From Anagrus nilaparvatae (lineage: Eukaryota; Arthropoda; Insecta; Hymenoptera; Mymaridae), in contig JAKSXM010000014.1 of assembly GCA_022575985.1 (NCBI GenBank), forward strand, positions 8,680,001 to 8,744,000: a DNA stretch of 64,000 nucleotides, in the 5' to 3' direction. Positions 2,287 to 50,815 of the stretch are shown one piece after another. Below the pieces are notes generated by a model. It was not told the DNA's origin, searched no databases, and saw only the letters and a program-made list of their open reading frames with translations. The stretch's first letter is position 1. The number at the start of each line of letters is the position of its first letter. The position numbers and the translations under genes are program-made.

Positions 2287-4253
2287 GAGGCCTATAGAGT
2301 ACTACAGAAAAAAAGTTTGATATAAAGCTGTTGGGCACAGAAAAATGTGCATATTAAGTAATGCAGTGAGTTTTTTGTGCATAAAATAATACAGGACATA
2401 ACATTTTTTGCATAAAGTTTTAAACACAGAAATTTAAGCACATATTTTTTTACAGAACATATTTTACAGTAAAATATTCAGCACAATTTCTTTTTGCATT
2501 AAAAATTCAGGGTAAAAAAGAAATAAGTTCAGCAGAATAGGTTCGACAAATAAATTTTTGCAAAGTTTATTCTGCATGATAAAATTTAATTTTGTAAGTT
2601 GAGCATAAAAAGTTTTGCAGTAGATAAATTTGACACAAGCAAATCTAACACACGTAAATTTCGACATAAGTTTTTGGACACAAAGCACGTTCAACACATG
2701 CTACTACAACATAAGCTGCGTTCAACACAACAAAACTCTACATGTTATAATAATTATTACCAAGAGATGGCGACAGTTTTATAGTTTTAAACTGATTTTT
2801 ATTATGGGACCATACTGCTTTCTTTCGGAATGGGGTTTGGTTTTTCTGGAAATGGGGTTTCCAACAAAGTTTTTCCACACCTCTCAGCTGTTACGCTCGA
2901 AATTTCAAGAAAATTTTTGCCTCAATTCAAGCAAGAAATACAGCTAAATATAGCCAATGCTGAAATTTTGAACAGATATTTAACTGGATGTCTTATCAAC
3001 TAAAACAGACTTTAGAAAAGCTTAAATTTTATTCTTCTCCCTTTTTTAACATTTATATGAAAAAAATCAAAATTACCAGCTAAATTTTCCAAGTATAGAA
3101 TGTTTTAATTGTTATAAAACAATATTTATTTTCTTAATATTTAATTCTGTTTCATCTTAGTTCACGCCCAATTCTCTCTGGATAACGTAACATCAGCAAC
3201 CAACCATAAATTTATATAAGTAAATAAAAAAGGATTAGACAATTGCACAGGTAGAAATCCTAATTTTTTTTTCAAATAAATGTTAAAAAAAAGGGAGCGG
3301 AATAAAATTTAAGGGTCGCTTTCTCGGAAATTTATTCGATATTATTATTTCTGAATAATATTTTACAAAAATTACGTAATGCATTATAAAATGCCAAGCA
3401 ATTGGCACTATGGTTCCTCATTAAAAATATTTTTCGTTATTTTGTTATTTCAGAAGAAAATTTTCAAAAAATTAGGTATCAATAATAATTGAATATATTC
3501 GGTAAAAACAACAATTCTAGATATTATTAATTTCATGGAAAAAAATAAGGTATCACATCTAAGTTAAAAAAAATAAAGTAGTTTAAGATTTTTTGGTAAA
3601 AAAATTGTTGAATAACAAATAAGGTCTTAATACCATAATAGTTGTGAAATATCACCGGTAAAATGTAAGGGTGGTTTTTCTATTTTGAACTATTAACTGG
3701 ACAATATTTCATTTTTTTATAAGCCCATTCTCTTCGAAAGGTAAGTGTTAATACTATAATTTATAAAATTTTAAATTATTTGCATTAAAAGTATCAGTAT
3801 AAAAATATAAAAACACTTTTCAATTTTACCGTAAAATTAAAAAACACAATTACACTATTACATAATAAAAAAATTATAAAATTATAAACGATAATAAGCA
3901 TATACAATTTCGTTACAAAAACTAAATTTTCTTATCTTTTAATGTCCAAAACTTTTGTGATAAACTTCTTTTCAACTAACGCAATTTTCAATCCAACATC
4001 TCGTTTCAAACGTAATTTTTTCTATATACAAAAATGATTTTAAGATTGTTAGTTCCTATATGATACTAGGAAATTTAAAATGGCTAAAGAAAGGGAATAT
4101 GAAAATTCAGATTGAAATAAACAAGAATTTTATAAGAATATATTTTTCATACACTATTTATTAAATATATTATACAACAAATATATATTTATTAATTATA
4201 AATAAAAACTTTCTTATAAAAATATAAACATATTAAAAAAAATAAATTCTTCT
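2287..4253. other. Left terminal non-coding region of the MULE
   Basis: The outer part (2287 to about 3060) pairs with 50050-50815. Segment 3395-3740 is a shortened version of the satellite unit that is expanded at 49140-49980 on the right; it begins at a GCCAAGCAATTGGCAC motif and ends in AAATATCACCGG. From about 3740 to 4253 the DNA is AT-rich, lies downstream of the RING exon's stop, and has no counterpart in the other arm. No gene is seen; the short ORFs read through repeats. Confidence 0.6.
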
Positions 4254-4489
4254 TCAAATCATAACCATTACAGGTTTCTTTGATGGAATTTTGCAATACG
4301 GGCAACAATGAAACGATGTTCCATCATTGTTTAAATCTCGATTACTCTTGATCATATTTTCCCAATCTTCTGAACAAGATTCACAAACCTTTACATGACC
4401 ACAATCATATTGCATACATTTCTCCTTTTTTCTGCACAAAAAGCAGTTCGTTTCCAACAAAATAATCTTTTGTACCTCTTCAAAATTCT
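4254..4489 (-). CDS. Exon 16, left: C-terminal RING finger
   Basis: C3HC4-type RING: CFLC, then DCGH, VCESC and CCPYC, about 75 residues ending at a TGA at 4254-4256. RING fingers bind zinc and usually give ubiquitin E3 ligase activity or protein contacts. The acceptor is TTTTTTTCAG|AG at 4490, and the join to exon 15 restores a GAG codon. The matching exon in the right arm (48153-48402) is only about half identical in protein, although the intron just upstream is nearly the same. Confidence 0.82.
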
Positions 4490-7400
4490 CTGAAAAAAAA
4501 AAGAAAGATTAGCATTCTTGCATTTTTATCAATTGTATCTAAGAACAGCAGGACATCAATTAACGTAAAGTAAGTAACCCTGGCAGGGAAGTCAAATTCA
4601 TACACTTTAAATTTTTTTTGTACTTAAACATTATACTGTTTTTAAGAAACTGAATCACATTACCGAAGCAACGTTTGCGAGACTAATAATCAAACAAAAT
4701 TTTCACATTTCGTTCGATATTCGTCTCATTACGACACAGCAATAAGCTAAAAGTGCACTAGCAGCCAATATTTGCATCGCAAGCTTTTCTATATTGGATT
4801 TTCATAAAAATTTAATTAAAAACCGTGACTAATTTTCATTTATTTGCATTTTACTGGCGATGCTATCGAAAAATCGTTATTTACTTTTTTTTAACTGAAA
4901 TTACCAATATTAGCTTAAACATTACCGAAGCAACGTTTGCGAGACTAATAATCAAACAAAATTTTAACATTTCGTTCGAAATTCGTCTCATTACGACTCA
5001 GCAATAAGCTAAAAGTGCACTAGCAGCCAATATTTGCATCGCAAGCATTTCTATATTGGATTTTCATAAAAATTTAATAAAACACCGTGACTAATTTTCA
5101 TTTATTTGCATTTTACTGGCGATGCTATCGAAAAATCGTTATTGACTTTTTTTAAAACTGAAATTACCAATATTAGCTTAAACATTACCGAAGCAACGTT
5201 TGCGAGACTAATAATCAAACAAAATTTTCACATTTCGTTCGAAATTCGTCTCATTACGACACAGCAATAAGCTAAAAGTGCACTATCAGCCAATATTTGC
5301 ATCGCAAGCTTATATATTGTTCTTAAATGTTAAAATTAAATATAACCGCAGATGAATATTTAACGTTCTTTTATTCTTGTTTTTGCGATTCGACTTTGTT
5401 CGGATAATGATTTTCTGAGTTTCGAAAATCAAATTTCACAAGTTTATCGACTGTTAGTCAATACCTAAAGTATACGCAAACATGCTATTACCGCAAATTT
5501 ATTTGCAAATTCTAGTAAACAAAAAGCTTGTTCCAATTTACGACCTCTTAAGAAACAAAAATTTTAACCATATTAACGTACTACAAAAAGAATACTTTGC
5601 TTTTTGGGTAATAAAAAGATATTCGCGTTTTTTTCCAGACGAACATTTTAAGAAACATTTTTTTTTTTTGATATTTCATTGAATCTCAAACAGCTATGGT
5701 ATAATACAATTAACAATGGCTTACTGTTACCCTGAAATTTATAAGTGTATACAAACCATCAATTCAATTAATTTTAGTTAAGGTAGCTCTATCATGATGA
5801 ATATGAAAATTGTAACAAAATTTTAGCCACAAGTTGTCCAAATTTTTGAGAATAACGAGGTCATCATTCTAAATAAATACATGCGTTCTTATCAGAGAAA
5901 TTTTTAACCTGAACTTTTAAGACAGAAACCAAAGAGTGAATGAATGAAACTGTTGACGTTTTAAATTAGAGAATGTATAGATTCAGATTAAATTTTGCTA
6001 TTTCCTTGTAGCCATAAAAAATTCTAAATATTTCCGCGTATTAATCCGCTTCCATTTTGTTAAAAAATACTTTTTTTAAAATAAAACAATTATGTCAAAT
6101 AAAAATAATTGTACTAGTTTTAACAAGTTTGCTATAAATATTTTGAATGCTTAACATTAAATAAAACTTCAATCTTGGGCGTGGTCAGAGATTATTATTA
6201 TTGTAAAGAGAGAGCCACCTTAACTCATATTACTGACGTAAATTTTTTTATTTCTTTAGAAACCAATCTCTTACCGAACTCTAAATGGAATGCTTTTGTT
6301 TTCAAAATTTACCATTTCCCAGTTAATCATAAAAAAAATTAGGCACAAATTTACAAAAGCAAATAAAAGAATGTTAATTGGGTTTAATTAATTAATAATT
6401 TCATCAGCGAAGACATATACAGTAATGACTTTTTTAAATATAAAAAAAAATATGAGCTACATTTTTCGAACACTTAAAAAAAGTTTGCTTTAACTTTCAG
6501 GGACCAGCAAGAAGTATTTCTTTCATGGCTCAGTAAAAAACTGAATCCTACTTCTTTACGTTAATTGATGTTTAATTTAACAGAATAACAAAATCATTTA
6601 AAAGCACAACAATGCTATGTAGTAACTGAAGCAAAATATGTTCATAATAAATTTATTTTGATTTCTGCAATATGCATTAAGGCGTTTGCAGTCTATTTAC
6701 TTTTGATAACAGACTTGAATTTAAAATTTTAAATTTGTATTTTACGCAAGTAATTAGTAATTTAATGAAAATTATGAAAATAAGATGTAATTATCAGGGT
6801 GTCGAAATTCGTGAGTTTACTAAAGAATATAAATAAAAAATGTATTAGTTTTTAATGTAATAAGTTTTAAAACATCATTAATGAACACAATTCTTGAGGA
6901 ATCAACGGTTATTTACGATCAATGATTTAATTTTAAATACAGTTTAAAATATAAAGTTTATATACAGTTTATTAGTGTATATTATTCATATATATTATTA
7001 TAGACAATTATTATATCATTCATATTCATTTTTTTGCAAAAACAGTGTCACGTGGTCGTTTATACCGACTGAAGTAAGAATTCACCAACTTTTTTGTCTT
7101 AAAGTTTGTATTTTTAAAAGTTGTTTACCACACCCCATAAACATTAACAAAATTTAAAGTTGAAAAAACATTTGTGGCTAAAATGTGACAAAAAAGCGTT
7201 TACCTTTCCTATCAAAAACTTGGCGTTTAAGCTAAAGAAATGCATGAATTTTTATTTACTTTTTTTTTAATTATGTTTTTCATTTAATCTTAGATGTATC
7301 AACATTTTTTTAATCTTAACTTTAGATCTTTAATCTTAACTTAACTATAGATGACATTTTAGTTGAAAATATAGCCAAAGTTCTCTTGTTTATTTTAAAA

Positions 7401-10400
7401 AATCATAAAAAGTCGCTGCTGTACTTTAAGAAATAAGCAGTTTTAAGTACAATAATAAACATTTTTTAAATTTACTAAGTTTTTATTACAATAGCAATGT
7501 TTCCCAAAATTTAGAACACTAAAACAAGATTTTTATATTACTTTTTTTAAATCTATTTTTGCAAATAAAATGAAACTGAGCCATATATATTATTATATAT
7601 AATATATTATATACAGATATTACCTTTATCTATAACAAAAAAAGTCAAATGTCCAAAACTAAAATCGAGGCGTGTATGCTGTTTGGTACATTCTAATAAA
7701 ATACATATCCAAAACCACGTCAATAAATAATTAAGGTTTCTCCATAAGATCATTTGGTTCTAACCGTTACAACTTTAAATTAACTAATATGTTGCAATAA
7801 TAAAAGTAATAATTTAATCGTATAAAAATTTAATTTTTGCGAGTTTACAACAGACTAACAGTCAAAAAAAAAGAATACTGATTTTATTTGTCATCTCACT
7901 TTTTTAAATTAAATATGAACATACTTTGAACTTCATAAAATAAAAGTCAATTTTACACTTCAAGTAAGATGTACGCTTAAAATTTTAAATAAGAATATTA
8001 AATATTAAAAGAAAATTTGAAACAAATTGGTAGTATAAAATGTTTTAAAGGTTATTTATCAAAAAGCATACATCAAACTTTAAACTGTCAAATTGATTTA
8101 AATTTATAAAAATTGTTACTACCTCTCATTGCTTTCAATTCTGCCTGTAGATTCTCGATGACGTTTGCTCTATTATCTTTTACAGAGCTTTCAGCAATAT
8201 TAATTGAATTATGAACACTGTTGTTTTGTAAAGATATACTTTCAGCATTCTTCTTTCGATTTTTTTTCTTTTGGTTCTTTCCTAAAAAAAAATTCTTTAT
8301 TCATTAACTGGCATACATTTCCTTTTTTTCATACATTTATTCAAATTATTTTTTTACGTACCCATTTTTTTTTTTGGAGCAATGACTTCCGTATTGGAAG
8401 GAATTATTTTTTTATTCTGTTTTGCTTTCAATCTCTTAAGCCTATTTCTTTTTTGATTTTTTGTCAACTTTGTTGGAGTTGATGTAACGACATTAACGGG
8501 GATAGGCTCAACTGAAATATTAAAAAATTACTTATAAACGTTGAAATAAAATTAAAAATATAATTCAAAACTAATTTTTTCTAATAAATTAATACCAGTA
8601 TTATTAAAGCTGTGAGATGAAATTCTTTCTTGGAAGTGATTCCCTGAAAGTATTTCATCATTTTCATCATTTTCAGAATTTAGTGACAGGCTGCTTTCAT
8701 CTAAAATTCATATTTCATTATTAACGTTTTACGACTTCATTTATTATAAAAATTATTTAAATGTTAATAAAAATAAGACCTTCCGAATCATCAGCGACAT
8801 ATGCGCCCTGATCTTGACTTCCTGCAAGTGCGAGATCATGTTGATCAATTATCATTTGTGCGTCTCCTAAAACGAATTTACGTATTAAAACTTTTTTAAT
8901 CATGAAAGTATAAATATATTAGCAACATCTTACCAATGGCTGGTACTAAACTGTTCACTTCATCTGATAGATTATTTCTTTCTGCATTATCCAACATAAT
9001 TTCATCTGACTCCAAGCTACTTTCAGAAAAATTATCGTTTTCCCTATCCACGTCAATAATTCCTAAAATGACAGGTAATTCAATATAAACATGATAATCA
9101 GAAAAATTGTAACATAATTCTTACCTTGTTGATTTGCTACATTATTTACACCCGATGCTTCATCTGCAGATTCATATGGCAATTCCATATCTTCTTCTGC
9201 CGATTCACTTAATTCTGAGATGCTCAATATTTCATCAACTAAACTTTCATTTTGTCTTGGATGGTTTGTTTCTAAAAATTTGATTATTTTAAAAACAATT
9301 ATAGCTACAATATTTATTAGCAAATTATGATTCAGTAATAAATAAAAATTGTTACCATGTCTATTGATTATATTAAGCAGGCCTGCTTGAAAATCTTCCA
9401 AACCCCCAGTTGCAGTGTCAGCGTTTGCTTCTTGATTTTCAAAATTATACGGTTCTTCAGCTAAAAAACACCAATGAGGTTAATTTTCAATAAATGAACT
9501 TACAAAAAAATGTGGTTCTTAAATAAACAACGATTTTTAATTTCAAGTAATTATAAGAAAAACTTTATTACTTACGGAGTATGGAAAACGTTTCAATTAA
9601 ACTATTTCTAAATTCAAGTAGTTGCCTTTGACCTTCATTATCGTCTCTGAATTGATTAATTTCCGGTTCATACTCGCTATCATATATACGGTCTGAAAAT
9701 AAAAAAAATATGAAAAAAACGTTCAAGTACTTAAGTTACATTATTAAATTATATTTCATTGGATTACTTCTGTATTTTTTCTCCCACACTTGACTCATCA
9801 TTTCGTGAATAAATTCGTCTAATGTTATTCTGCAATAAATTTATGCTTATTACATCCGAATCATAAAAAAATTATTTAATTGTATAATCCTCGGCCGTAA
9901 ACAAAGAATGACTTAAATCGCAGTTTACCATCCTAGGCTTCGCCTCGGAAGGTAATTTACGTGCGATTTCGGCCATTCTTTATTTTTCTGGCCTAGGACC
10001 GTAATATACTATTTTTATTTTTCTTCACCTTTCCCGGTCGAATTTCCATTCAGCCTCTGCTTTGGCATCTTCTGCATCTACACTCTGTTTGCGTCGTCTT
10101 TTATGAATTCTTTTGTGTCGCTTTATTACTCTTTTGCAATCGGTGTCATAACTTTTAAGGACTTTTAATAATTTATCTATAATTTTAAATTATTTTCTTG
10201 TTAAAATATTTCAAATTATTCTAATATGATATTTTAATATAATATTTTTTTCAAACCAAGCATAAGCCAAAGTTCCGGGTGTGAACCAATTTTATCGTTC
10301 AGTTCGCGGTGGTAACGCTCACACAGATTATTAGTGGTTATTGGCCTTTTATTGACACTTATGATTGTCTTCAGCGGGACCCACGTTCGCTTCATGTACA

Positions 10401-13400
10401 ATTCAAATCTTCTCAGCTTTTCTACTTGCTCACTGATTTCTGCGATATCATCTCTAAGTTTCTGGAAACCTTTGTCAAATTTCTCAGCTGGTAGGTACGC
10501 TAAACACTGGGCATAGTGAGATACTTCGTCGTAACCTTCGACCCCAATTTCTTTCCATTTTTTCACAACGGCCTAAAAATAAATTTCATACACGCGATGT
10601 TACTTTAATGCTTCGACATTCTATTTTAAAATTTAAATTGTTTCGTATTCGTTTAAGTTTTTTTATTCTAACATAAAGAATTTTCATAGCAAAGGGTCGG
10701 ATTAAGCAGGGGCGTATCCAGAAATTGGTTTTTGAGGGTGCGATTTAAAATTTTTTGTCAGATGCCCCTAAAATGGGCTTACAGCGCCCTAAAATTTTTG
10801 TAATTTTTCTTACTAGCGGCTCGAAAATCCTTTTTTTCGCCCCAAGACACGATAATAAAAACGCGTTTTCTACTCACTGAGAAAGAAAAATTGCGTTTTT
10901 TCAATGGAAGCAAAAAAATTATGCCACATATCGCAATTTAGCATCCTTGACGTCAACTGAAATTCAAATAATTTCAATTTAAAACCTTTCAATAATTTTA
11001 AAAGTAAGGGAATAGGATGTTTTCAATTATTTAGAGTAATCAGTTTTTTAGATTATTTTTAGAGTTTTAGATTTTTAGTTTAAATTTTTCAATTATTTAG
11101 AGTTTCAGTTATTTAGAGTATTTAAGCTGTTGGAAATTTTGGTAACTTGTCAATAAAATTTCAAACAATTGTTTTCTGAGTAAACTCCACTATCAATTTA
11201 CAATTTACTGAAATAAATTATTTCTATAAATTCGCTTCAACATTCAAACACTATTTACTCTTGAAAATTGAATATAAAATAAAAAAAAGTAGATTAGCTG
11301 CCCAAAATGATGACAAAAGATTTCTTTCGTTGATCGTTTTTTTTTTTTTTTAAGACCTTTTTTATGTTAAAAATTTTACTTCATCTTGAAAGATAATTTG
11401 AAAATATTCAAAATTTATGTATCTTACTAAATAATTGACAGCTACGGGGTCTATTAAGATTCTTACAATTAATGTTTTAAGACTGCTTCTGAGTAAATCG
11501 CTATTATCATCATTAAATTTTATTCTCTTTTATTTATTAAGTTAAGTTTCAAAGGTATTACTTATTTTACAAAGGTTCAGGGGTTGATTACAAATTTTCG
11601 TAGAAATTACAATTACCGATATAATTTTTTTTTTTAAGTTCATTTTGGAAAATATTATTTACAATTAAATTATAAAGTTTCATAGTATTTTAAAATTAAA
11701 GAAAACGTATCAAAAAAGATGAGGTTGTTGGTTATTTTACGAATTTCTATGCGTTTTTTATTACATTTATGAAAATAATGTCAATAAAGTTTGTAAAACT
11801 AATTGGAAATGCAATCTTTAAGTTGGTACTTATTCATCAGATTTATTAAGTTTCGTCGCTCTGTGTAATCTGCACACTAATTTTTTTTAAGTTTAAGAAA
11901 ATTTTCATTAGTAATTTATTAAGTCGGTGACAAAGGTAAAAAATAATGTATTTTAGCTTGAGGCAAAATTCGTGAAACGATCATCACTTACCAGGTTGAC
12001 CTCTCGAAACTTAACAGCGGGTTTACGGGGGAGTTCACACATCAAAAATATGAATACTTAAATTAATTGCTTAAAAATGCTTCAGTTATAGTCACATTGT
12101 GGAAGGTACTTTTTTTTAATGTTTCGTTTTCATTGGTTTGTCTGATTTTCCCGAGGATTTTCAGAAAAACGAACACCAGTCTAATGGCTTTAGTGGCAAA
12201 TTTTAATACGTGGCCTATACTGCAAAACATATTTTTAAAGCTTCTATGTGTGCTACTCAGAGATTTCTTTTAAAAATGACAAAAAAAAATGGAGAAACAC
12301 CAAGGAGGTTTCATTGGACATAACTTGGGTAGACTTAAAGACCTACGGAGCTGAAATTTGCCCAAAAGCTTATATTTTAGATGTGTAAACTCCCCCCTAA
12401 ATCAGCGGATAAGATTTGAGAGGTCAACCTGGCATGTGATGACCGTCTTTCACGAATTTTACCTCCCTTAAAAATCCTAAAACTTAATATTATTAACGCT
12501 TTGTTGCATGCTCTCATAATTTTTTTCAACCCCATCGACCATCATCAGGGTCAAAGCAGTTAACGAAATTACATAAAACCGGTGTAAAATTAAAGAAAAA
12601 AAGTCCACTGGTGACATCGAAAATTTTACTGTCGCACTTTATAGTATTCGATTCGGCACTAATTCTTGCGTATTCTCTTACATTTTTATTCAAAACGGAG
12701 GTATCTTAAAAATTTTATTAAATATTTTTGAAGCTGGTTAAAAAATTTTTTTAACTTTTTTTATTTTTTATGGTATTTCAAATAATATATTTGTGTGTCT
12801 GTGTGGGTGTACGTTTCATCATCAGGGTCGAACCAATGAACAGTCAAAATGAAGTGTCAAAATATTGAAAAAAAAGTCTGCTCGTGACATAGGCCATAGT
12901 TTTGTGACTCATTATTAACGAAAAATTAAGAATACAGGTCGTTTTAGCATAAATATATGGAAAAATATTACTTTCACAAAAAAAAATGATTATTATCATT
13001 TTGCAAGAAGACAAAATTGGTAAAATTTTGAGAACAAACAGAACCGTTGAAAATAAACAGAAAAAAAGTTATGGGCAAAATAAACTTTTTTTTAATTTTT
13101 TAAGAAATTTTAAACGAAAAGTCATAACACTTGCTCCTAAATATGTCCAGTCATTTTTAGCCCTATCGAGTAATATCGAGCAGCGTGAACATTATTTAAT
13201 TTTAACAGCCAATTTTTTTAGTATTCATTCCAAGTTATTTATATTTTAATTTTTTGGTTTAATTTTTCATCTGTAAAAAGATTTGCCTATTTTATGTTTA
13301 TAACGGTTAATTCTCTTTTTTTTCAGGCTAAATTTTTAAAAAATTGTTTTTTTCTTTTTTTCAACAATTATATACAATTTTCAAAAAAAACCACTGTACA

Positions 13401-14931: not shown

Positions 14932-14969
<38 letters not shown>

Positions 14970-16858: not shown

Positions 16859-16953
16859 CTTTTTTTCTTCAAATAAGTCCTGTAAGTTATAAAAAAAAAA
16901 AATACTTTTTTATTTTTTAACCAAGTTTCGGTTTTTCCAAGTCTTTTTTATTA

Positions 16954-35115: not shown

Positions 35116-35153
<38 letters not shown>

Positions 35154-38100: not shown

Positions 38101-39272
38101 AGAAAATTTATGTATTGAATTCAACTAAATCTATTTTTTTCAAAATAAAATCTAACGTAATTCATTGGATAATAATTATTCAAGATAGTACTTTCATGGA
38201 ATTAAATGAAATATTACACACACAAAAAAATATTGCAAAATTATGGTATTTTTTTAATTATTTTATGTAAAAAATTTAGAAAAAAAAATTTAGAAAAATT
38301 ACGTATCAGATGGAGAAATCCTTTACAATCGATAATTCTAGATATTCGTACTTTCATAGGAAAAAATTAAGTATTACGTCCTAAAATAAAAAAAAATTTG
38401 GCGTTTTTTGTATTTTTTGACGACAAAAATTTTGAGAAAAAAATTTAAAAAAAATTAAGAATCAGGTCAAAAAAATTACTATGAATGATATCTCTAAAAC
38501 TAGTACTTCCACAGAAATAAATTAAGTACTGCGTCCATAAAGAAAAAAAAAATTGGTATTTTTTGTATTTTTTGGTGAAAAAAATTTTGAGAAAAAAATT
38601 TTCAATAAATAAATTATAAGATTCGAGATATCGAGTAAAAACGATACTTCTAGATATCAGTACTTTCATGGAAAAAAATGAGGTACTACGTCCAAAAATA
38701 AAAAAAATTATGGTATTTTTTTAATTATTTTATGTAAAAAATTTAAAAAAAAAAAATTTCGAAAAATTATGTATCAGATGGAGAAATCCTTTACAAACGA
38801 TAATTCTAGATATTCGTACTTTCATAGGAAAAAATTAAGTATTACGTCCTAAAATAAAAAAAATTTTGGCGTTTTTTGTATTTTTTGGCGACAAAAATTT
38901 TGAGAAAAAAATTTTAAAAAAATTAAGTATTAGGTCCAAAAAATTACTATAAACGATATTTCTAAAACTAGTACTTCCATGGAAATAAATTAGGTACTAC
39001 GTCCAAAAAGAAAAAAAAAATTGGTATTTTTTGTATTTTTTTGTGAAAAAAATTTTAGGAAAAAAATTTTCAGAAAATTAAGTATCCGATTCGAGATATC
39101 ATGTGAAAACCATACTTTCAAATATAAGTACTTTCATGGAAATAAATGAGGTATTACATCCAAATTAAAAAAAAAAAAAAGTACCTCGAGCTTTTTTGGT
39201 GAAAAAATTTTTGAAAAAAAAATTAGGTCTTAATTCCATAATGTTTGTGAAATATCAGCGATTACATACATA

Positions 39273-39316
<44 letters not shown>

Positions 39317-42300
39317 CACACACACACACACACATACAGACTTTTTTTAAAAACCAATTTTTTAGCTTCCTGGGGTCCCAAAACGTGCTTATATGCCAAA
39401 AAATCAGAAAACAAAATTTGACCTAACACAATGGTTCCTCTATGAGGAACCAAAAAGTACCTTCCACAATGTGACTATAACTGAAGCATTTTTAAGCAAT
39501 TAATTTAAGTATTCATATTTTTGATGTGTGAACTCCCCCGTAAACCCGCTGTTAAGTTTCGAGAGGTCAACCTGGTAAGTGATGATCGTTTCACGAATTT
39601 TGCCTCAAGCTAAAATACATTATTTTTTACCTTTGTCACCGACTTAATAAATTACTAATGAAAATTTTCTTAAACTTAAAAAAAAGTAGTGTGCAGATTA
39701 CACAGAGCGACGAAACTTAATAAATCTGATGAATAAGTACCAACTTAAAGATTGCATTTCCAATTAGTTTTACAAACTTTATTGACATTATTTTCATAAA
39801 TGTAATAAAAAACGCATAGAAATTCGTAAAATAACCAACAACCTCATCTTTTTTGATACGTTTTCTTTAATTTTAAAATACTATGAAACTTTATAATTTA
39901 ATTGTAAATAATATTTTCCAAAATGAACTTAAAAAAAAAAATTATATCGGTAATTGTAATTTCTACGAAAATTTGTAATCAACCCCTGAACCTTTGTAAA
40001 ATAAGTAATACCTTTGAAACTTAACTTAATAAATAAAAGAGAATAAAATTTAATGATGATAATAGCGATTTACTCAGAAGCAGTCTTAAAACATTAATTG
40101 TAAGAATCTTAATAGACCCCGTAGCTGTCAATTATTTAGTAAGATACATAAATTTTGAATATTTTCAAATTATCTTTCAAGATGAAGTAAAATTTTTAAC
40201 ATAAAAAAGGTCTTAAAAAAAAAAAAAACGATCAACGAAAGAAATCTTTTGTCATCATTTTGGGCAGCTAATCTACTTTTTTTTATTTTATATTCAATTT
40301 TCAAGAGTAAATAGTGTTTGAATGTTGAAGCGAATTTATAGAAATAATTTATTTCAGTAAATTGTAAATTGATAGTGGAGTTTACTCAGAAAACAATTGT
40401 TTGAAATTTTATTGACAAGTTACCAAAATTTCCAACAGCTTAAATACTCTAAATAACTGAAACTCTAAATAATTGAAAAATTTAAACTAAAAATCTAAAA
40501 CTCTAAAAATAATCTAAAAAACTGATTACTCTAAATAATTGAAAACATCCTATTCCCTTACTTTTAAAATTATTGAAAGGTTTTAAATTGAAATTATTTG
40601 AATTTCAGTTGACGTCAAGGATGCTAAATTGCGATATGTGGCATAATTTTTTTGCTTCCATTGAAAAAACGCAATTTTTCTTTCTCAGTGAGTAGAAAAC
40701 GCGTTTTTATTATCGTGTCTTGGGGCGAAAAAAAGGATTTTCGAGCCGCTAGTAAGAAAAATTACAAAAATTTTAGGGCGCTGTAAGCCCATTTTAGGGG
40801 CATCTGACAAAAAATTTTAAATCGCACCCTCAAAAACCAATTTCTGGATACGCCCCTGCTTAATCCGACCCTTTGCTATGAAAATTCTTTATGTTAGAAT
40901 AAAAAAACTTAAACGAATACGAAACAATTTAAATTTTAAAATAGAATGTCGAAGCATTAAAGTAACATCGCGTGTATGAAATTTATTTTTAGGCCGTTGT
41001 GAAAAAATGGAAAGAAATTGGGGTCGAAGGTTACGACGAAGTATCTCACTATGCCCAGTGTTTAGCGTACCTACCAGCTGAGAAATTTGACAAAGGTTTC
41101 CAGAAACTTAGAGATGATATCGCAGAAATCAGTGAGCAAGTAGAAAAGCTGAGAAGATTTGAATTGTACATGAAGCGAACGTGGGTCCCGCTGAAGACAA
41201 TCATAAGTGTCAATAAAAGGCCAATAACCACTAATAATCTGTGTGAGCGTTACCACCGCGAACTGAACGATAAAATTGGTTCACACCCGGAACTTTGGCT
41301 TATGCTTGGTTTGAAAAAAATATTATATTAAAATATCATATTAGAATAATTTGAAATATTTTAACAAGAAAATAATTTAAAATTATAGATAAATTATTAA
41401 AAGTCCTTAAAAGTTATGACACCGATTGCAAAAGAGTAATAAAGCGACACAAAAGAATTCATAAAAGACGACGCAAACAGAGTGTAGATGCAGAAGATGC
41501 CAAAGCAGAGGCTGAATGGAAATTCGACCGGGAAAGGTGAAGAAAAATAAAAATAGTATATTACGGTCCTAGGCCAGAAAAATAAAGAATGGCCGAAATC
41601 GCACGTAAATTACCTTCCGAGGCGAAGCCTAGGATGGTAAACTGCGATTTAAGTCATTCTTTGTTTACGGCCGAGGATTATACAATTAAATAATTTTTTT
41701 ATGATTCGGATGTAATAAGCATAAATTTATTGCAGAATAACATTAGACGAATTTATTCACGAAATGATGAGTCAAGTGTGGGAGAAAAAATACAGAAGTA
41801 ATCCAATGAAATATAATTTAATAATGTAACTTAAGTACTTGAACGTTTTTTTCATATTTTTTTTATTTTCAGACCGTATATATGATAGCGAGTATGAACC
41901 GGAAATTAATCAATTCAGAGACGATAATGAAGGTCAAAGGCAACTACTTGAATTTAGAAATAGTTTAATTGAAACGTTTTCCATACTCCGTAAGTAATAA
42001 AGTTTTTCTTATAATTACTTGAAATTAAAAATCGTTGTTTATTTAAGAACCACATTTTTTTGTAAGTTCATTTATTGAAAATTAACCTCATTGGTGTTTT
42101 TTAGCTGAAGAACCGTATAATTTTGAAAATCAAGAAGCAAACGCTGACACTGCAACTGGGGGTTTGGAAGATTTTCAAGCAGGCCTGCTTAATATAATCA
42201 ATAGACATGGTAACAATTTTTATTTATTACTGAATCATAATTTGCTAATAAATATTGTAGCTATAATTGTTTTTAAAATAATCAAATTTTTAGAAACAAA

Positions 42301-45300
42301 CCATCCAAGACAAAATGAAAGTTTAGTTGATGAAATATTGAGCATCTCAGAATTAAGTGAATCGGCAGAAGAAGATATGGAATTGCCATATGAATCTGCA
42401 GATGAAGCATCGGGTGTAAATAATGTAGCAAATCAACAAGGTAAGAATTATGTTACAATTTTTCTGATTATCATGTTTATATTGAATTACCTGTCATTTT
42501 AGGAATAATTGACGTAGATAGGGAAAACGATAATTTTTCTGAAAGTAGCTTGGAGTCAGATGAAATTATGTTGGATAATGCAGAAAGAAATAATCTATCA
42601 AATGAAGTGAACAGTTTAGTACCAGCCATTGGTAAGATGTTGCTAATATATTTATACTTTCATGATTAAAAAAGTTTTAATACGTAAATTCGTTTTAGGA
42701 GACGCACAAATGATAATTGATCAACATGATCTCGCACTTGCAGGAAGTCAAGATCAGGGCGCACATGTCGCTGATGATTCGGAAGGTCTTATTTTTATTA
42801 ACATTTAAATAATTTTTATAATAAATGAAGTCGTAAAACGTTAATAATGAAATATGAATTTTAGATGAAAGCAGCCTGTCACTAAATTCTGAAAATGATG
42901 AAAATGATGAAATACTTTCAGGGAATCACTTCCAAGAAAGAATTTCATCTCACAGCTTTAATAATACTGGTATTAATTTATTAGAAAAAATTAGTTTTGA
43001 ATTATATTTTTAATTTTATTTCAACGTTTATAAGTAATTTTTTAATATTTCAGTTGAGCCTATCCCCGTTAATGTCGTTACATCAACTCCAACAAAGTTG
43101 ACAAAAAATCAAAAAAGAAATAGGCTTAAGAGATTGAAAGCAAAACAGAATAAAAAAATAATTCCTTCCAATACGGAAGTCATTGCTCCAAAAAAAAAAA
43201 TGGGTACGTAAAAAAATAATTTGAATAAATGTATGAAAAAAAGGAAATGTATGCCAGTTAATGAATAAAGAATTTTTTTTTAGGAAAGAACCAAAAGAAA
43301 AAAAATCGAAAGAAGAATGCTGAAAGTATATCTTTACAAAACAACAGTGTTCATAATTCAATTAATATTGCTGAAAGCTCTGTAAAAGATAATAGAGCAA
43401 ACGTCATCGAGAACCTACAGGCAGAATTGAAAGCAATGAGAGGTAGTAACAATTTTTATAAATTTAAATCAATTTGACAGTTTAAAGTTTGATGTATGCT
43501 TTTTGATAAATAACCTTTAAAACATTTTATACTACCAATTTGTTTCAAATTTTCTTTTAATATTTAATATTCTTATTTAAAATTTTAAGCGTACATCTTA
43601 CTTGAAGTGTAAAATTGACTTTTATTTTATGAAGTTCAAAGTATGTTCATATTTAATTTAAAAAAGTGAGATGACAAATAAAATCAGTATTCTTTTTTTT
43701 TTACTGTTAGTCTGTTGTAAACTCGCAAAAATTAAATTTTTATACGATTAAATTATTACTTTTATTATTGCAACATATTAGTTAATTTAAAGTTGTAACG
43801 GTTAGAACCAAATGATCTTATGGAGAAACCTTAATTATTTATTGACGTGGTTTTGGATATGTATTTTATTAGAATGTACCAAACAGCATACACGCCTCGA
43901 TTTTAGTTTTGGACATTTGACTTTTTTTGTTATAGATAAAGGTAATATCTGTATATAATATATTATATATAATAATATATATGGCTCAGTTTCATTTTAT
44001 TTGCAAAAATAGATTTAAAAAAAGTAATATAAAAATCTTGTTTTAGTGTTCTAAATTTTGGGAAACATTGCTATTGTAATAAAAACTTAGTAAATTTAAA
44101 AAATGTTTATTATTGTACTTAAAACTGCTTATTTCTTAAAGTACAGCAGCGACTTTTTATGATTTTTTAAAATAAACAAGAGAACTTTGGCTATATTTTC
44201 AACTAAAATGTCATCTATAGAATTAAGTTAAGATTAAAAAAATGTTGATACATCTAAGATTAAATGAAAAACATAATTAAAAAAAAAGTAAATAAAAATT
44301 CATGCATTTCTTTAGCTTAAACGCCAAGTTTTTGATAGGAAAGGTAAACGCTTTTTTGTCACATTTTAGCCACAAATGTTTTTTCAACTTTAAATTTTGT
44401 TAATGTTTATGGGGTGTGGTAAACAACTTTTAAAAATACAAACTTTAAGACAAAAAAGTTGGTGAATTCTTACTTCAGTCGGTATAAACGACCACGTGAC
44501 ACTGTTTTTGCAAAAAAATGAATATGAATGATATAATAATTGTCTATAATAATATATATGAATAATATACACTAATAAACTGTATATAAACTTTATATTT
44601 TAAACTGTATTTAAAATTAAATCATTGATCGTAAATAACCGTTGATTCCTCAAGAATTGTGTTCATTAATGATGTTTTAAAACTTATTACATTAAAAACT
44701 AATACATTTTTTATTTATATTCTTTAGTAAACTCACGAATTTCGACACCCTGATAATTACATCTTATTTTCATAATTTTCATTAAATTACTAATTACTTG
44801 CGTAAAATACAAATTTAAAATTTTAAATTCAAGTCTGTTATCAAAAGTAAATAGACTGCAAACGCCTTAATGCATATTGCAGAAATCAAAATAAATTTAT
44901 TATGAACATATTTTGCTTCAGTTACTACATAGCATTGTTGTGCTTTTAAATGATTTTGTTATTCTGTTAAATTAAACATCAATTAACGTAAAGAAGTAGG
45001 ATTCAGTTTTTTACTGAGCCATGAAAGAAATACTTCTTGCTGGTCCCTGAAAGTTAAAGCAAACTTTTTTTAAGTGTTCGAAAAATGTAGCTCATATTTT
45101 TTTTTATATTTAAAAAAGTCATTACTGTATATGTCTTCGCTGATGAAATTATTAATTAATTAAACCCAATTAACATTCTTTTATTTGCTTTTGTAAATTT
45201 GTGCCTAATTTTTTTTATGATTAACTGGGAAATGGTAAATTTTGAAAACAAAAGCATTCCATTTAGAGTTCGGTAAGAGATTGGTTTCTAAAGAAATAAA

Positions 45301-48300
45301 AAAATTTACGTCAGTAATATGAGTTAAGGTGGCTCTCTCTTTACAATAATAATAATCTCTGACCACGCCCAAGATTGAAGTTTTATTTAATGTTAAGCAT
45401 TCAAAATATTTATAGCAAACTTGTTAAAACTAGTACAATTATTTTTATTTGACATAATTGTTTTATTTTAAAAAAAGTATTTTTTAACAAAATGGAAGCG
45501 GATTAATACGCGGAAATATTTAGAATTTTTTATGGCTACAAGGAAATAGCAAAATTTAATCTGAATCTATACATTCTCTAATTTAAAACGTCAACAGTTT
45601 CATTCATTCACTCTTTGGTTTCTGTCTTAAAAGTTCAGGTTAAAAATTTCTCTGATAAGAACGCATGTATTTATTTAGAATGATGACCTCGTTATTCTCA
45701 AAAATTTGGACAACTTGTGGCTAAAATTTTGTTACAATTTTCATATTCATCATGATAGAGCTACCTTAACTAAAATTAATTGAATTGATGGTTTGTATAC
45801 ACTTATAAATTTCAGGGTAACAGTAAGCCATTGTTAATTGTATTATACCATAGCTGTTTGAGATTCAATGAAATATCAAAAAAAAAAAATGTTTCTTAAA
45901 ATGTTCGTCTGGAAAAAAACGCGAATATCTTTTTATTACCCAAAAAGCAAAGTATTCTTTTTGTAGTACGTTAATATGGTTAAAATTTTTGTTTCTTAAG
46001 AGGTCGTAAATTGGAACAAGCTTTTTGTTTACTAGAATTTGCAAATAAATTTGCGGTAATAGCATGTTTGCGTATACTTTAGGTATTGACTAACAGTCGA
46101 TAAACTTGTGAAATTTGATTTTCGAAACTCAGAAAATCATTATCCGAACAAAGTCGAATCGCAAAAACAAGAATAAGAGAACGTTAAATATTCATCTGCG
46201 GTTATATTTAATTTTAACATTTAAGAACAATATATAAGCTTGCGATGCAAATATTGGCTGATAGTGCACTTTTAGCTTATTGCTGTGTCGTAATGAGACG
46301 AATTTCGAACAAAATGTGAAAATTTTGTTTGATTATTAGTCTCGCAAACGTTGCTTCGGTAATGTTTAAGCTAATATTGGTAATTTCAGTTTTAAAAAAA
46401 GTCAATAACGATTTTTCGATAGCATCGCCAGTAAAATGCAAATAAATGAAAATTAGTCACGGTGTTTTATTAAATTTTTATGAAAATCCAATATAGAAAT
46501 GCTTGCGATGCAAATATTGGCTGCTAGTGCACTTTTAGCTTATTGCTGAGTCGTAATGAGACGAATTTCGAACGAAATGTTAAAATTTTGTTTGATTATT
46601 AGTCTCGCAAACGTTGCTTCGGTAATGTTTAAGCTAATATTGGTAATTTCAGTTAAAAAAAAGTAAATAACGATTTTTCGATAGCATCGCCAGTAAAATG
46701 CAAATAAATGAAAATTAGTCACGGTTTTTAATTAAATTTTTATGAAAATCCAATATAGAAAAGCTTGCGATGCAAATATTGGCTGCTAGTGCACTTTTAG
46801 CTTATTGCTGTGTCGTAATGAGACGAATTTCGAACGAAATGTGAAAATTTTGTTTGATTATTAGTCTCGCAAACGTTGCTTCGGTAATGTTTAAGCTAAT
46901 ATTGGTAATTTCAGTTTTAAAAAAAGTAAATAACGATTTTTCGATAGCATCGCCAGTAAAATGCAAATAAATGAAAATTAGTCACGGTGTTTTATTAAAT
47001 TTTTATGAAAATCCAATATAGAAATGCTTGCGATGCAAATATTGGCTGCTAGTGCACTTTTAGCTTATTGCTGAGTCGTAATGAGACGAATTTCGAACGA
47101 AATGTTAAAATTTTGTTTGATTATTAGTCTCGCAAACGTTGCTTCGGTAATGTTTAAGCTAATATTGGTAATTTCAGTTTTAAAAAAAGTCAATAACGAT
47201 TTTTCGATAGCATCGCCAGTAAAATGCAAATAAATGAAAATTAGTCACGGTGTTTTATTAAATTTTTATGAAAATCCAATATAGAAATGCTTGCGATGCA
47301 AATATTGGCTGCTAGTGCACTTTTAGCTTATTGCTGAGTCGTAATGAGACGAATTTCGAACGAAATGTTAAAATTTTGTTTGATTATTAGTCTCGCAAAC
47401 GTTGCTTCGGTAATGTTTAAGCTAATATTGGTAATTTCAGTTAAAAAAAAGTAAATAACGATTTTTCGATAGCATCACCAGTAAAATGCAAATAAATGAA
47501 AATTAGTCACGGTTTTTAATTAAATTTTTATGAAAATCCAATATAGAAAAGCTTGCGATGCAAATATTGGCTGCTAGTGCACTTTTAGCTTATTGCTGTG
47601 TCGTAATGAGACGAATTTCGAACGAAGTGTAAAAATTTTGTTTGATTATTAGTCTCGCAAACGTTGCTTCGGTAATGTTTAAGCTAATATTGGACTATTG
47701 TTTAACATTATTATTTTTTTATTAAATTGTTTATAATAGTTAGTAACTTGGTTAAATATACAAATAAATTTGAAACTAGAGTAACCATTTAAATGATTTT
47801 ATTTGAAATTTTATTTTGATTTTAAAAATGCATGGAAATTATTATAGGTGCAATGCGGGATGATTTTTGAAGCAAGTTAAACAAAAGTAGATTTGCATCT
47901 GTAATTAAATAAAATTCTCGATAAAATTTAACTCAGTAATGTACGCATTCGTTGTAAAATTTTTTAAATTGATCTATAGGTCTTAAAAGATTCAGTTCCT
48001 TAAAAACAGGGTAATTTCTTAGTACAAAAAAAATTTAAAGCGTATGAATTTGACTTCTCTGCCAGGGTTACTTACTTTATGTTAATTGATGTCCTGCTTT
48101 TCTTAGATACAATTGATAAAATTGCGAGAATGCTAATATTTTTTTTTTTCAGAAAAAATAGACGATGTCCAGGAGGAATTCGGCTACAAAATGAATTGTT
48201 TTATTTGTACAGTCAGGAAGAAGTGTATGAAATATTCATGTGGTCACGTTTGCGTGTGTGAAATATGTGCCTTGGTTCATAGGAGGCAGACAAAAAAAAC

Positions 48301-48402
48301 AAAAAAATTCAGAGGGAAAAGTTTATAACAAATGGTCCTACATTTTTAACTTGCCCTTATTGCAGAAAGAAATCAAAGAAGCCGAAAAAGGTTGAACTGT
48401 AA
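33227..48402 (+). CDS. MULE transposase, right-arm copy (16 exons, last exon frameshifted)
   Basis: Mirror copy of the left gene. Exons: 33227-33576, 33645-33918, 34011-34073, 34161-34367, 40993-41308, 41389-41536, 41736-41797, 41873-41989, 42105-42209, 42294-42440, 42503-42631, 42699-42785, 42865-42969, 43054-43203, 43284-43442, 48153-48402. Exons 1-15 keep the same phases and nearly the same protein as the left copy (for example Pro instead of Leu at residue 8). In exon 16 the frame shifts within A-runs near 48288-48308. Read straight, the protein ends at the TAA at 48326-48328 before the last Cys pair; the missing CPYC lies in another frame up to 48402. DDE residues, FLYWCH finger and basic/acidic linker are unchanged, so catalysis may survive even if the RING does not. 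Confidence 0.8.
33645..34367 (+). CDS. Exons 2-4, right: MULE core with both Asp residues
   Basis: DGTFQ at the end of exon 2, VLPHHPKFSHLY in exon 3, TIDFEKAA and GCLFHYKQ in exon 4. Donor and acceptor sites match the left copy (CAA|GTAAAG, TTTTCAG|GTG, TCG|GTAATT, TTTTCAG|GCA, CAG|GTATTT). Confidence 0.85.
37976..39454. mobile_element. Right-only 1.5-kb satellite/microsatellite element
   Basis: The left arm lacks this block: its A-run at 12108-12117 is continuous, while here an insert splits the same A-run. The insert begins CTGCCAACTAGCTGGCAC...GGTTCCTC and ends GGTTCCTCTATGAGGAACC. In between are about seven diverged units of a roughly 150-bp satellite (CTTTCATGGAAATAAAT.., TTTTTTGGTGAAAAAAATTTT..) and a (CA)n tract. 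The plan of a short terminal palindrome, central tandem units and a microsatellite recalls DINE/HINE-type non-autonomous Helentrons. That family call is an inference. Confidence 0.65.
39279..39335. repeat. CA microsatellite inside the right-only element
   Basis: A (CA)n tract with one CG interruption, flanked by TACATACATACG and ATACAGACTTTTTTTAAAAA. It makes long ORFs of His-Thr or Val-Cys repeats on both strands that are not genes. Confidence 0.9.
40993..41308 (+). CDS. Exon 5, right: MULE core with the catalytic Glu
   Basis: Carries NNLCERYHRELN and HPELWLML, unchanged from the left copy. The acceptor is TTATTTTTAG|GCC and the donor CTTG|GTTTG. Confidence 0.85.
41389..43442 (+). CDS. Exons 6-15, right: basic, acidic and lysine-rich linker
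   Basis: Ten exons with the same boundaries as the left copy. The basic run RHKRIHKRRRKQ is in exon 6. Clusters of Glu/Asp/Ser run through exons 8-13 and Lys clusters lie in exons 14-15. Introns are short except intron 6, most of which is a hairpin repeat (41554-41680). Confidence 0.7.
41554..41680. repeat. 127-bp imperfect hairpin repeat in intron 6 (right)
   Basis: Mirror copy of 9885-10011. Its presence in both arms at the same intron position dates it before the arms were last homogenised, or shows that it was copied across with the arm. Confidence 0.7.
46240..47690. repeat. 262-bp tandem repeats in intron 15 (right)
   Basis: About 5.5 units anchored by GCTAGTGCACTTTTAGC near 46525, 46784, 47050, 47310 and 47570, plus a variant at 46259. 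Units alternate between two subtypes (TGTGTCGTAATG and TGAGTCGTAATG). The left arm has 2.5. Confidence 0.85.
48153..48402 (+). CDS. Exon 16, right: divergent RING finger with frameshift
   Basis: Encodes CFIC, SCGHVCVCEIC and, after a frame change, TCPYCRKKSKKPKK. The order is C3HC4 as in the left exon, but the sequences differ at about half of positions while the upstream intron is nearly the same in both arms. The frame break lies in ACAAAAAAAACAAAAAAA at about 48291-48308. It could be a real mutation or a homopolymer sequencing error. Confidence 0.75.
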
Positions 48403-48741: not shown

Positions 48742-48778
<37 letters not shown>

Positions 48779-50815
48779 TTGTTATTATAAATGTTTAAGT
48801 GAATTCTAAAATGAATAATGTGTGTACCCCATATCTACATCCAAGTTACAATTTAAGCCATAAGATTGCGATTTTGTCCTTGTATGGAAGTACTTTACTC
48901 GGATTTTTTTCAAAAGTTGTATTCATAATTTATGCATTTGCAATGAAAATAAAGCAAGTTTTGTTTTAGTTAAAATTTTGTTTTTTGATTTTTTGACATA
49001 TAAGCACGTTTTGAGACCTCAGGAAGCTAAAAAACCGGTTTAAAAAAAAAATAAGTATGTGTGTGTGTGAGTGAGTGAGTGTGTGTGTGTATTTATGTAT
49101 GTATGAATGGATAGATGTAGCACTGTAACCGGTGATATTTCACATTTATTATGGTATTAAGCCCTTATTTTTTATTCAACAATTTTTAATCAAAAAATCT
49201 TAAACTACTTTATTTTTTTTAACTTAGATGTGATAGCTTATTTTTTCCATTAAATTAATAATATCTAGAATAGTTGTTTTTACTGGATATATTCAATTAT
49301 TATTGATACCTAATTTTTTGAAAAATTTTTCTCAAATATTTAGAATTATAGTTTTTACTAGTAAAATAGACCAAAATAACAAAATAACAAAATATTTTTA
49401 ATGAGGAACGATAGAAATACCAATTTTTTTTTCTTTTTGGACGTAGTACCTAATTTATTTCCATGGAAGTACTAGTTTTAAGAACCTTGTTTATTGTAAT
49501 TTTTTGGATCTGATATTTAATTTTTTTTAATTTTTTTGTCAAAATTTGTCGCCAAAAAATACAAAAAACGCCAAAATTTTTTTTATTTTAGGACGTAATA
49601 CTTAATTTTTTCATATGAAAGTACGAATATCTAGAATTATCGTTTTTAAAGGATTTCTCCATCTGATACATAATTTTTCGAAATTTTTTTTTTTTATTTT
49701 GTACATAAAATAATTAAAAAAATACCATAACTTTTGTTCTTTTTGGACGTAGTACCTCATTTTTTTCCATGAAAGTACTGATATCATCGTTTTTACTCGA
49801 TATCTCGAATCTTATAATTTATTTATTGAAAATTTTTTTCTCAAAATTTTTTTCACCAAAAAAAAAAATACCAATTTTTTCTTTCTTTATGGACGCAGTA
49901 CTTTATTTATTTCTGTGGAAGTACTAGTTTTAGAAATATCATTTATAGTAATTTTTTATTCGGTAAAATAGAATATTGACAACATTTTGTTATTGCTAAT
50001 GAGAGGAACCATAGTGCCAATTACTTGGCAGCGTTTTTTTTCATATGAATATTAAAAAAGGGAGAAGAATAAAATTTAAGCTTCCCTAAAGTCTGTTTTA
50101 GTTGATAAGACATCCAGTTAAATATCTGCTCAAAATTTCAAGCATTGGCTATATTTAGCTGTATTTCTTGCTTGAATTGAGGCAAAAATTTTCTTGAAAT
50201 TTCGAGCGTAACAGCTGAGAGGTGTGGAAAAACTTTGTTGGAAACCCCATTTCCAGAAAAACCAAACCCCATTCCGAAAGAAAGCAGTATGGTCCCATAA
50301 TAAAAATCAGTTTAAGACTATAAAACTGTCGCCATCTCTTGGTAATAATTATTATAACATGTAGAGTTTTGTTGTGTTGAACGCAGCTTATGTTGTAGTA
50401 GCATGTGTTGAACGTGCTTTGTGTCCAAAAACTTATGTCGAAATTTACGTGTGTTAGATTTGCTTGTGTCAAATTTCTCTACTGCAAAACTTTTTATGCT
50501 CAACTTACAAAATTAAATTTTATCATGCAGAATAAACTTTGCAAAAATTTATTTGTCGAACCTATTCTGCTGAACTTATTTCTTTTTTACCCTGAATTTT
50601 TAATGCAAAAAGAAATTGTGCTGAATATTTTACTGTAAAATATGTTCTGTAAAAAAATATGTGCTTAAATTTCTGTGTTTAAAACTTTATGCAAAAAATG
50701 TTATGTCCTGTATTATTTTATGCACAAAAAACTCACTGCATTACTTAATATGCACATTTTTCTGTGCCCAACAGCTTTATATCAAACTTTTTTTCTGTAG
50801 TACTCTATAGGCCTC
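48403..50815. other. Right terminal non-coding region of the MULE
   Basis: From 48403 to about 48950 the DNA has no counterpart in the left arm and includes a run of more than 30 A at about 48738-48775. A degraded TG microsatellite lies near 49058-49092. Satellite units of about 150 bp run from 49140 to 49980 and end at the GAGGAACC...GCCAATTACTTGGCAG motif (about 49993-50029). From 50050 to 50815 it pairs with 2287-3060, the outermost inverted repeat. Confidence 0.65.

Follow-up and report, generated by a model that had tools for sequence, protein, structure and literature searches.

A probable Mutator-like transposon of Anagrus nilaparvatae built as a 48.5-kb palindrome with a transposase gene in each arm

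We analyzed a 64,000-bp stretch of the genome of the insect Anagrus nilaparvatae (C1:8680001-8744000 of a genome assembly of 488.7 Mb in 393 contigs; hereafter, the window), which contains a palindromic element of 48,529 bp (2287-50815). All of the element structures described below were read from this assembly of one genome. Most probably the element is an autonomous-looking Mutator-like element (MULE) of a lineage that has been palindromic for long, in which the two arms have been homogenised and the two types of a RING-encoding last exon have been kept apart. A prediction made earlier from the sequence alone (the original prediction) described the locus as a single mobile unit, representing either a giant foldback MULE or two normal MULE copies that are joined head to head as a dimer and moved together. 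The first of these alternatives fits the data presented here.

The exact inverted termini that had been predicted are present at both ends of the element (GAGGCCTATAGAG at 2287 and CTCTATAGGCCTC at 50815; Table 1). The two ends are identical over their first 338 bases, and their outer 780 bp differ by 7 substitutions (99% identity). The predicted 8-bp target site duplication (TSD), GTGTATTA, is perfect (8/8) at both flanks; random 8-mers drawn from these flanks match at all eight positions with a frequency of 0.0003. The host site is the 5′ long terminal repeat (LTR) of a BEL/Pao retrotransposon, which was cut 22 bp from its start (the LTR ends lie at 2265 and 51004). This retrotransposon is bracketed by a 5-bp duplication (ACAAG) and encodes a Pao peptidase domain (Pfam; E 2.6e-46) and an integrase zinc-binding domain (Pfam). 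Its sister 3′ LTR, which differs from the 5′ LTR by 2 substitutions and a 5-bp indel, is uninterrupted and therefore constitutes the empty site for the giant element. The clean nesting in the BEL/Pao LTR, the empty sister LTR and the perfect TSD strongly support the insertion of the 48.5 kb as one unit, in agreement with the original prediction. Judged by the divergence of the BEL LTRs, this insertion is recent.

Each arm contains a 16-exon gene (spliced at GT/AG sites) that faces outward. Exons 1-15 are open in both arms, between which they differ at 6 coding positions, and encode, in order, (i) a FLYWCH domain (PF04500; E 2.2e-4, 21.8 bits, cut-off 23.6), (ii) a MULE DDE domain (PF10551; model positions 3-98 of 99, E 1.5e-4, 22.6 bits, cut-off 27.6), (iii) an Asp/Glu-rich region and (iv) a Lys-rich region. 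The motifs MDGTF, TIDFEKA, GCLFHYKQ and NNLCERYH are present in this order, and we take them to represent the DDE residues of the transposase. One distant match (26% identity, E 9.4e-4), to a protein annotated as having a MULE domain, was obtained, and no relatives of the transposase were found among viral contigs. When the left half of the element was translated in six frames (with X for stops) and scanned against Pfam, only the FLYWCH exon and a single weak match, attributable to chance, were returned. Exon 16 encodes a C3HC4 RING domain, and the RING exons of the two arms, designated alpha (left) and beta (right), share only 18 of 46 residues. The left exon 15-exon 16 junction and the full length of the protein (~884 aa) were read by eye. 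The proposal of a full 16-exon transposase gene per arm is supported, with the reservation that the frame of the beta RING exon is broken; the alpha RING exon is open.

End-to-end alignment showed that the arms pair from the termini to positions 24693 and 27803. With arm-specific insertions counted, they are ~22.4 and 23.0 kb long and comprise ~45 of the 48.5 kb of the element; they also hold tandem repeats. The original proposal of 24-kb arms meeting at a 50-bp spacer is incorrect: the pairing stops at an unpaired centre of 3.1 kb, and the axis at 26.7 kb is that of a separate local foldback (485 bp, ~80% self-complementary) within this centre. The latter also contains a companion gene, orf1, an open frame of 213 aa that occurs once in the window and shares its strand with the alpha transposase gene of the left arm.

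The divergence of the arms is 0.1% in the core (12 substitutions in 12,277 aligned bases), 0.9% at the ends, 1.2-4.8% in the inner pieces outside tandem repeats (25/2073, 32/689 and 23/478 differences; 2.7-8.6% with tandem repeats included) and 7.9% in the intron beside the RING exon (13/164 differences, 92% identity). Tandem-repeat stretches (up to ~16% divergence) were excluded from the test of the segments, since unit-to-unit misalignment inflates their divergence. A palindrome of uniform age was rejected, because each of the non-core segments differs from the core (p<1e-4); a smooth rise of divergence toward the centre was also considered and dropped, since a windowed count showed none. 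Six segments were compared with the BEL LTRs (2/199 differences). Three of them, namely the intron and the inner pieces with 32/689 and 23/478 differences, exceed the LTRs in divergence (nominal p 0.001-0.02), the ends and the remaining inner piece do not differ from the LTRs, and the core falls below them (nominal p=0.02). Since three segments exceed the LTR divergence, the arms probably differed before this insertion took place. Each arm also carries an insertion of its own: (i) a 2.2-kb sequence in the left arm, which has CACTGAGA/CAATGAGA termini, is flanked by a TA duplication and has its empty site in the right arm, and (ii) a 1.5-kb sequence with ~155-bp tandem repeats in the right arm.

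A search of the genome with the 19-base terminus, as suggested in the original prediction, gave no exact matches other than the two ends of the window element; four additional hits with 2 mismatches were recognized by inspection as unrelated sequence. When the 780-bp end was used as the query, with 40 of 151 candidates scored, two more giant elements came to light as inverted-end pairs at C79:4343944-4402695 (58.8 kb) and C95:12151212-12212232 (61.0 kb), whose ends are 73-74% identical to those of the window element. The C79 element has arms of ~25 kb around a centre of ~9.0 kb. From the RING exon to the centre, its arms are distinguished by 17 differences in 20,581 aligned sites (minisatellite and indels excluded), and its terminal repeats differ at 15 of 441 sites. 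In both arms, 13 of the 16 exons were matched by the window peptides in outward order, both RING exons included; exons 10, 11 and 13 remained under the threshold of this search. The TSD of the C79 element matches at 7 of 8 bases (chance frequency of 7/8 or better, 0.003). The C95 element retains the alpha gene and the beta RING exon. These two elements are ~98-99% alike in most blocks, and their flanks (1.0-2.9 kb compared) do not match each other. A relic of the window element's own lineage, in two pieces with 96-97% identity, is present at C317. This relic (L044, C317:31216230-31216666) is a truncated terminus that lacks its first 7 bases and is split by ~210 bp. In the C95 element (L027-L033), the two orf1 copies are inverted, beta-arm exons are deleted and a TSD is lacking, a combination that recombination between copies might give.

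The product of orf1 shares 76-77% aa identity with its counterparts in the C79 and C95 elements. No relatives were found among 5.8 billion proteins, queried with one sequence or with a 3-row alignment, and comparisons with PDB and Pfam gave no convincing relative; a single-sequence AlphaFold model was useless (mean pLDDT 35). No relative of this orphan gene was thus found outside this genome, within which it is present in each of the three palindromes and accompanies nine of the at least 30 other transposase places.

Comparison of the three elements revealed that exons 1-6 of the transposase gene and its last exon have different histories. Over exons 1-6 (1320 codon-aligned bases) there is 1 difference between the arms of the window element and 1 between those of the C79 element, compared with 291-295 differences between the two lineages, at a nonsynonymous divergence (dN) of 0.11-0.12 and a synonymous divergence (dS) of 1.76-1.80. 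The C79 arms differ from each other at 4 of 13,025 sites, and each differs from the C95 arm at 31 of ~13,019; being closer to each other than to C95, they point to recent homogenisation in C79. The RING exons form two groups, alpha (window left, C79 right and C95 left) and beta (window right, C79 left and C95 right), with a support of 100/99 for the split, and a pairing of the two RING exons of the window was rejected (AU test, p 1.6e-4). Exons 1-6 group by lineage, and the alpha grouping was rejected for them (p 3.6e-43). When the RING exons found outside the palindromes on contigs C265 and C234 were added, the alpha group received a support of 94/95 and alpha plus beta 100/99; the window pairing was again rejected (p 6.3e-5). 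In C79, the near-identity of the arms reaches through the intron (97.8% over 276 bp) to the RING exon and stops there. The orf1 gene is co-oriented with the alpha arm in both the window and C79 elements, and the C95 element has two opposite copies.

The dN/dS ratios (NG86) between the lineages are ~0.065 for exons 1-6, 0.37 (0.227/0.607) for the alpha RING exon, 0.16 (0.25/1.57; 46 codons) for the beta RING exon and 0.17 (0.125/0.72; 187 codons) for orf1; the RING values are derived from few codons, and dS values of about 1.5 or more approach saturation. All of these ratios are below 1, so that selection probably acted on the proteins during the divergence of the lineages. The simplest reading of the sequence comparisons is that the alpha-orf1-beta palindrome predates the split of the lineages, and that the arms have since been homogenised within elements, with the exception of the RING exon. 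Because the two-armed form with orthologous alpha and beta last exons occurs in a second, long-diverged lineage, we conclude from these data that the palindrome is an old inherited architecture and not a one-off dimer. A dimer of a standard MULE, the second alternative offered originally, was rejected: two complete units, each with its own termini and orf1, are not present, orf1 being single and inner termini lacking, and the layout is inherited in the second lineage. The 13-bp terminus has nine other sites, all with 3 mismatches; the centre has none of them, and eight belong to tandem repeats or to pairs mirrored between the arms.

Searches outside the palindromes revealed at least 30 places with a transposase match (hand count; 84 of 222 candidates scored). 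A search with orf1 (28 of 28 candidates scored) located this gene at 14 places: one in the window element, one in C79, two in C95 and 10 elsewhere. At nine of the latter, orf1 lies upstream of a transposase match on the same strand; at the tenth (C234:3.31 Mb) there is no transposase match among the matches listed. None of the at least 30 other places listed has a transposase partner on the opposite strand within 100 kb. At C157 (L047), where 10 kb was read, orf1 is followed by one transposase, no long palindrome occurs within this stretch, and no RING exon was detected in it. At C265, orf1 and one transposase are accompanied by one RING exon, 13 kb downstream on the same strand, and they may form one gene. 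As to the single-arm versions that the original prediction proposed to look for, single-unit relatives do occur but are more distant, and nine of these have orf1 and one transposase.

The ancestral unit was probably orf1-transposase-RING. As orf1 precedes a single transposase at nine other places, the data suggest that the palindrome originated by inverted duplication of a transposase arm without orf1. In such an event, the transposase arm of an ordinary orf1-transposase unit would have been copied in inverted orientation, replacing the far end and leaving orf1 single. Two plausible routes are (i) repair copying from one end into the other, by analogy with the mechanism proposed in the account of Galileo (PMC3573991), and (ii) snap-back copying of an excised element. 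A RING exon nearly identical to that of C265 was also observed at C234:409701-410200 (L049), with no transposase match nearby among those listed.

The layout of the palindromic lineage is as follows: terminus, RING(alpha), outward-facing transposase gene, orf1 in the unpaired centre, outward-facing transposase gene, RING(beta), terminus. The stretch from the RING exon to the centre would be homogenised by gene conversion between the arms, or by one arm serving as the template for the other, and the difference between alpha and beta would be maintained by selection. The element would produce two transposases that share the DNA-binding and catalytic domains but carry different RING tails. Transposition presumably is an ordinary MULE DDE cut-and-paste reaction at the matching outer ends, which would be the substrates of the transposases; with the FLYWCH and DDE parts in common, either transposase could bind both ends. 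The near-perfect arms would allow an intact arm to mend the other. The conserved difference of the RING exons suggests separate roles for alpha and beta.

Several observations weigh against this explanation. The MULE, FLYWCH and RING matches are all under the Pfam curated cut-offs. Current copies are not all intact, as the window beta frame is broken in an A-rich stretch and the C79 alpha RING lacks one cysteine. The C95 element has no beta-arm exons 1-15, no TSD and two copies of orf1, and the orf1 end of C79 is unlike that of C95. There are just three elements in one genome and, with C79 and C95 being close sisters, two independent lineages. The RING exons could be aligned over few columns (82; 46 for the window beta exon) and, with the outgroup added, beta alone received a support of only 74/80, with long branches flagged. 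Just three of the six arm segments exceed the BEL LTR divergence; two do not and the core is below it. Finally, 21 of the 30 other transposase places listed have no orf1 match, and at these orf1 is either absent or too diverged.

Two further views share this layout. According to the first, the palindrome is real and old, and the difference between alpha and beta is functionless, the RING exon merely lying at the edge of conversion tracts and one copy being dispensable. This is compatible with the layout of the best explanation, and we grant it a limited, though appreciable, chance. It agrees with the broken beta frame in the window and the lost alpha cysteine in C79, as well as with the tract boundaries in the window, which coincide with heterologous insertions or repeats. 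In C79, however, the near-identity runs to the very edge of the RING exon and ends there, dN is below dS across lineages for both RING types, and the same exon is exempt in both lineages. The second view goes beyond the explanation preferred here: the palindrome would itself be the functional form of a two-headed transposon, with alpha and beta as obligate partner transposases that have the FLYWCH and catalytic domains in common and act as a hetero-oligomer pairing both ends, and with arm conversion as a means of self-repair for both genes and the termini. Self-repair by conversion has been proposed for sex-chromosome palindromes. For the present element we consider this view less likely than not.

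It is improbable that separate alpha and beta MULE families met head to head repeatedly by recombination, so that the palindromes are young and their arms nearly identical from recent formation. The arm cores indeed differ by only 0.02-0.15%, under the divergence of the BEL LTRs. However, a search with the alpha RING exon found no single-unit alpha or beta element. Seven of its 9 matches lie in the three palindromes, corresponding to an alpha and a beta exon in each (the window beta exon in two pieces), and the other two, on C265 and C234, fall outside alpha plus beta (100/99). The single orf1 co-oriented with the alpha arm in both the window and C79, and the three arm segments that exceed the LTR divergence, also argue against recurrent formation.

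Long palindromes are prone to misassembly, and a mirrored or chimeric contig must be considered as a source of the structure; we judge this very unlikely. The arms are distinguished by the TA-flanked 2.2-kb left and the 1.5-kb right insertions, by the copy number of the minisatellite and by their RING exons. The TSDs match and the BEL LTR is split exactly across both ends, a second element of the same layout lies on another contig, and there are no N bases in the window or in the C79, C95 and C317 stretches. Conversion of a normal MULE into a palindrome after its insertion in the BEL LTR would suit the young insertion and the nearly identical core arms, but is hardly credible, given that independent elements elsewhere have the same layout, both outer ends are of the same end type, three arm segments exceed the LTR divergence and the alpha/beta split is older than the lineages.

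We classify the element as a MULE of a palindromic, two-transposase form with alpha and beta last exons. It has the MULE DDE domain (under the cut-off), matching terminal inverted repeats (TIRs) and a TSD that is 8/8 in the window, 7/8 in C79 and lacking in C95; the TSDs of MULEs are described as 8-11 bp long (PMC6446971). It also has features of foldback (FB)-type elements, i.e. long, internally repetitive inverted repeats that make up most of the element, with a unique segment between them. According to a survey (PMC6446971), the TIRs of MULEs are 14-500 bp long, and those of Phantom elements 18-613 bp or absent. As described there, Phantom has in common with the present element a MULE transposase, a TSD of 8-10 bp and 1 or 2 open reading frames (ORFs); some members have a FLYWCH finger, for which the present element has a candidate under the Pfam cut-off, and in aphid members a minisatellite is reported after the transposase ORF, as is the case here. 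The 780-bp outer repeat and ~22-kb arms found in this study exceed the TIR range given for Phantom, 18-613 bp (PMC6446971). Phantom is one of the systems most like the present element, which differs from it further by its two transposase genes, the RING last exon and the alpha and beta types.

The account of Tm1 of Meloidogyne (PMC3169594) describes a MULE/Phantom-like transposase, long, composite, internally repetitive inverted repeats and a TSD of mostly 8-10 bp; the transposase element is 2.6 kb long and has its gene between the repeats, whereas here the gene lies inside the repeats, in both arms. Galileo, a foldback-like element of the P superfamily, is described as undergoing TIR extension that recruits internal sequence, proposed to occur via repair from the other end, and as showing TIR exchange and chimeric copies without an identical TSD, to which C95 may be compared (PMC3573991). 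It differs, in the same description, in its superfamily, in TIRs of up to ~1.26 kb and in that the longest-TIR copies have no transposase ORF. Teratorn differs by its piggyBac-like transposase and herpesvirus genes, and the passages concerned make no mention of a transposase duplicated in both arms (PMC6431247). Maize MuDR (mudrA and mudrB) is, by the survey's description, likewise a MULE with a transposase and a second ORF (PMC6446971). For orf1, Pfam offers no relative that is convincing. Beyond its short TIRs, MuDR is not known to be palindromic. In the open-licence PMC literature, searched by titles and the beginnings of abstracts, nothing appeared to describe a MULE whose long arms each hold a transposase gene, which does not prove that none has been described.

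Long palindromes are generally considered unstable. In the elements described here, a palindromic transposon body of 48-61 kb, with a transposase gene per arm, has been inherited across lineages at a dS of ~1.8. Within one transposon, the arms show concerted evolution from which a single exon is consistently exempt. A mobile element thus seems able to persist in the form of a large palindrome that makes two versions of its enzyme. This raises two testable questions: (i) whether arm-to-arm conversion shields a selfish gene from mutational decay and (ii) whether a DNA transposon may depend on two co-evolving transposase forms. The finding also supplies an orphan companion gene, orf1.

Table 1. 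Positions of the features of the palindromic element and of its insertion site in the window
Feature	Position	Strand	Remarks
5′ LTR of BEL/Pao, first 22 bp, ACAAG before	2265..2286	+	
Left TSD, GTGTATTA	2279..2286		sequence match
Left terminal inverted repeat, outer 780 bp	2287..3066	+	7 substitutions in 780
Left exon 16, alpha RING (C3HC4), open	4254..4489	-	E 9.1e-4, under cut-off
Minisatellite of 262-263 bp, last intron, left, 2.5 copies	4657..5346		
Near-identical core, left half	4657..16953		12 substitutions in 12,277
Left transposase exons 1-15	8123..16858	-	
Left-arm-only insertion, TA duplication	16954..19185		empty site in right arm
Inner left arm, 19-bp and ~138-bp tandem repeats	19186..24693		mosaic divergence vs 27803-33134
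Unpaired centre	24694..27802		3.1 kb
orf1 companion gene	25762..26400	-	dN 0.125, dS 0.72 vs C95
Small local foldback	26459..26943		~80% self-complementary
Inner right arm	27803..33134		
Near-identical core, right half	33133..46890		aligned to left half
Right transposase exons 1-15	33227..43442	+	
Right-arm-only insertion, ~155-bp tandem repeats	37975..39451		
Minisatellite of 262-263 bp, last intron, right, 5.5 copies	46201..47693		
Right exon 16, beta RING, broken frame	48153..48402	+	E 6.6e-4, under cut-off
Right terminal inverted repeat	50035..50815	-	pairs with left end
Right TSD, GTGTATTA	50816..50823		sequence match
5′ LTR of BEL/Pao, remainder	50824..51004	+	
3′ sister LTR of BEL/Pao, empty site, ACAAG after	55679..55876	+	

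Some additional features were noted in the arms and flanks. A 19-bp minisatellite (ACCACATTGGCCCAAAAGG type) occurs in both inner arms (19328-19499 and 32631-32987), where it falls in open frames of ~100-160 codons, in several frames. No Rfam family was found. The left-arm-only insertion contains a foldback of 968 bp (17800-18767). The right-arm-only insertion (37975-39451) is related to a second one (48961-50034) by ~155-bp tandem repeats and GGTTCCTC-type motifs near the ends, and a similar piece lies to the left of the C79 element. Toward the edges of the window, open frames at 155-577 and 58247-58669 presumably resemble a non-LTR retrotransposon endonuclease and a helicase-like fragment; Pfam returned nothing significant for them. 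The BEL/Pao retrotransposon (50816-55876 together with 2265-2286) is young and has inserted into an AT-rich array of ~45/115-bp repeats, which is present on both of its sides (1464-2262 and 55876-56590).

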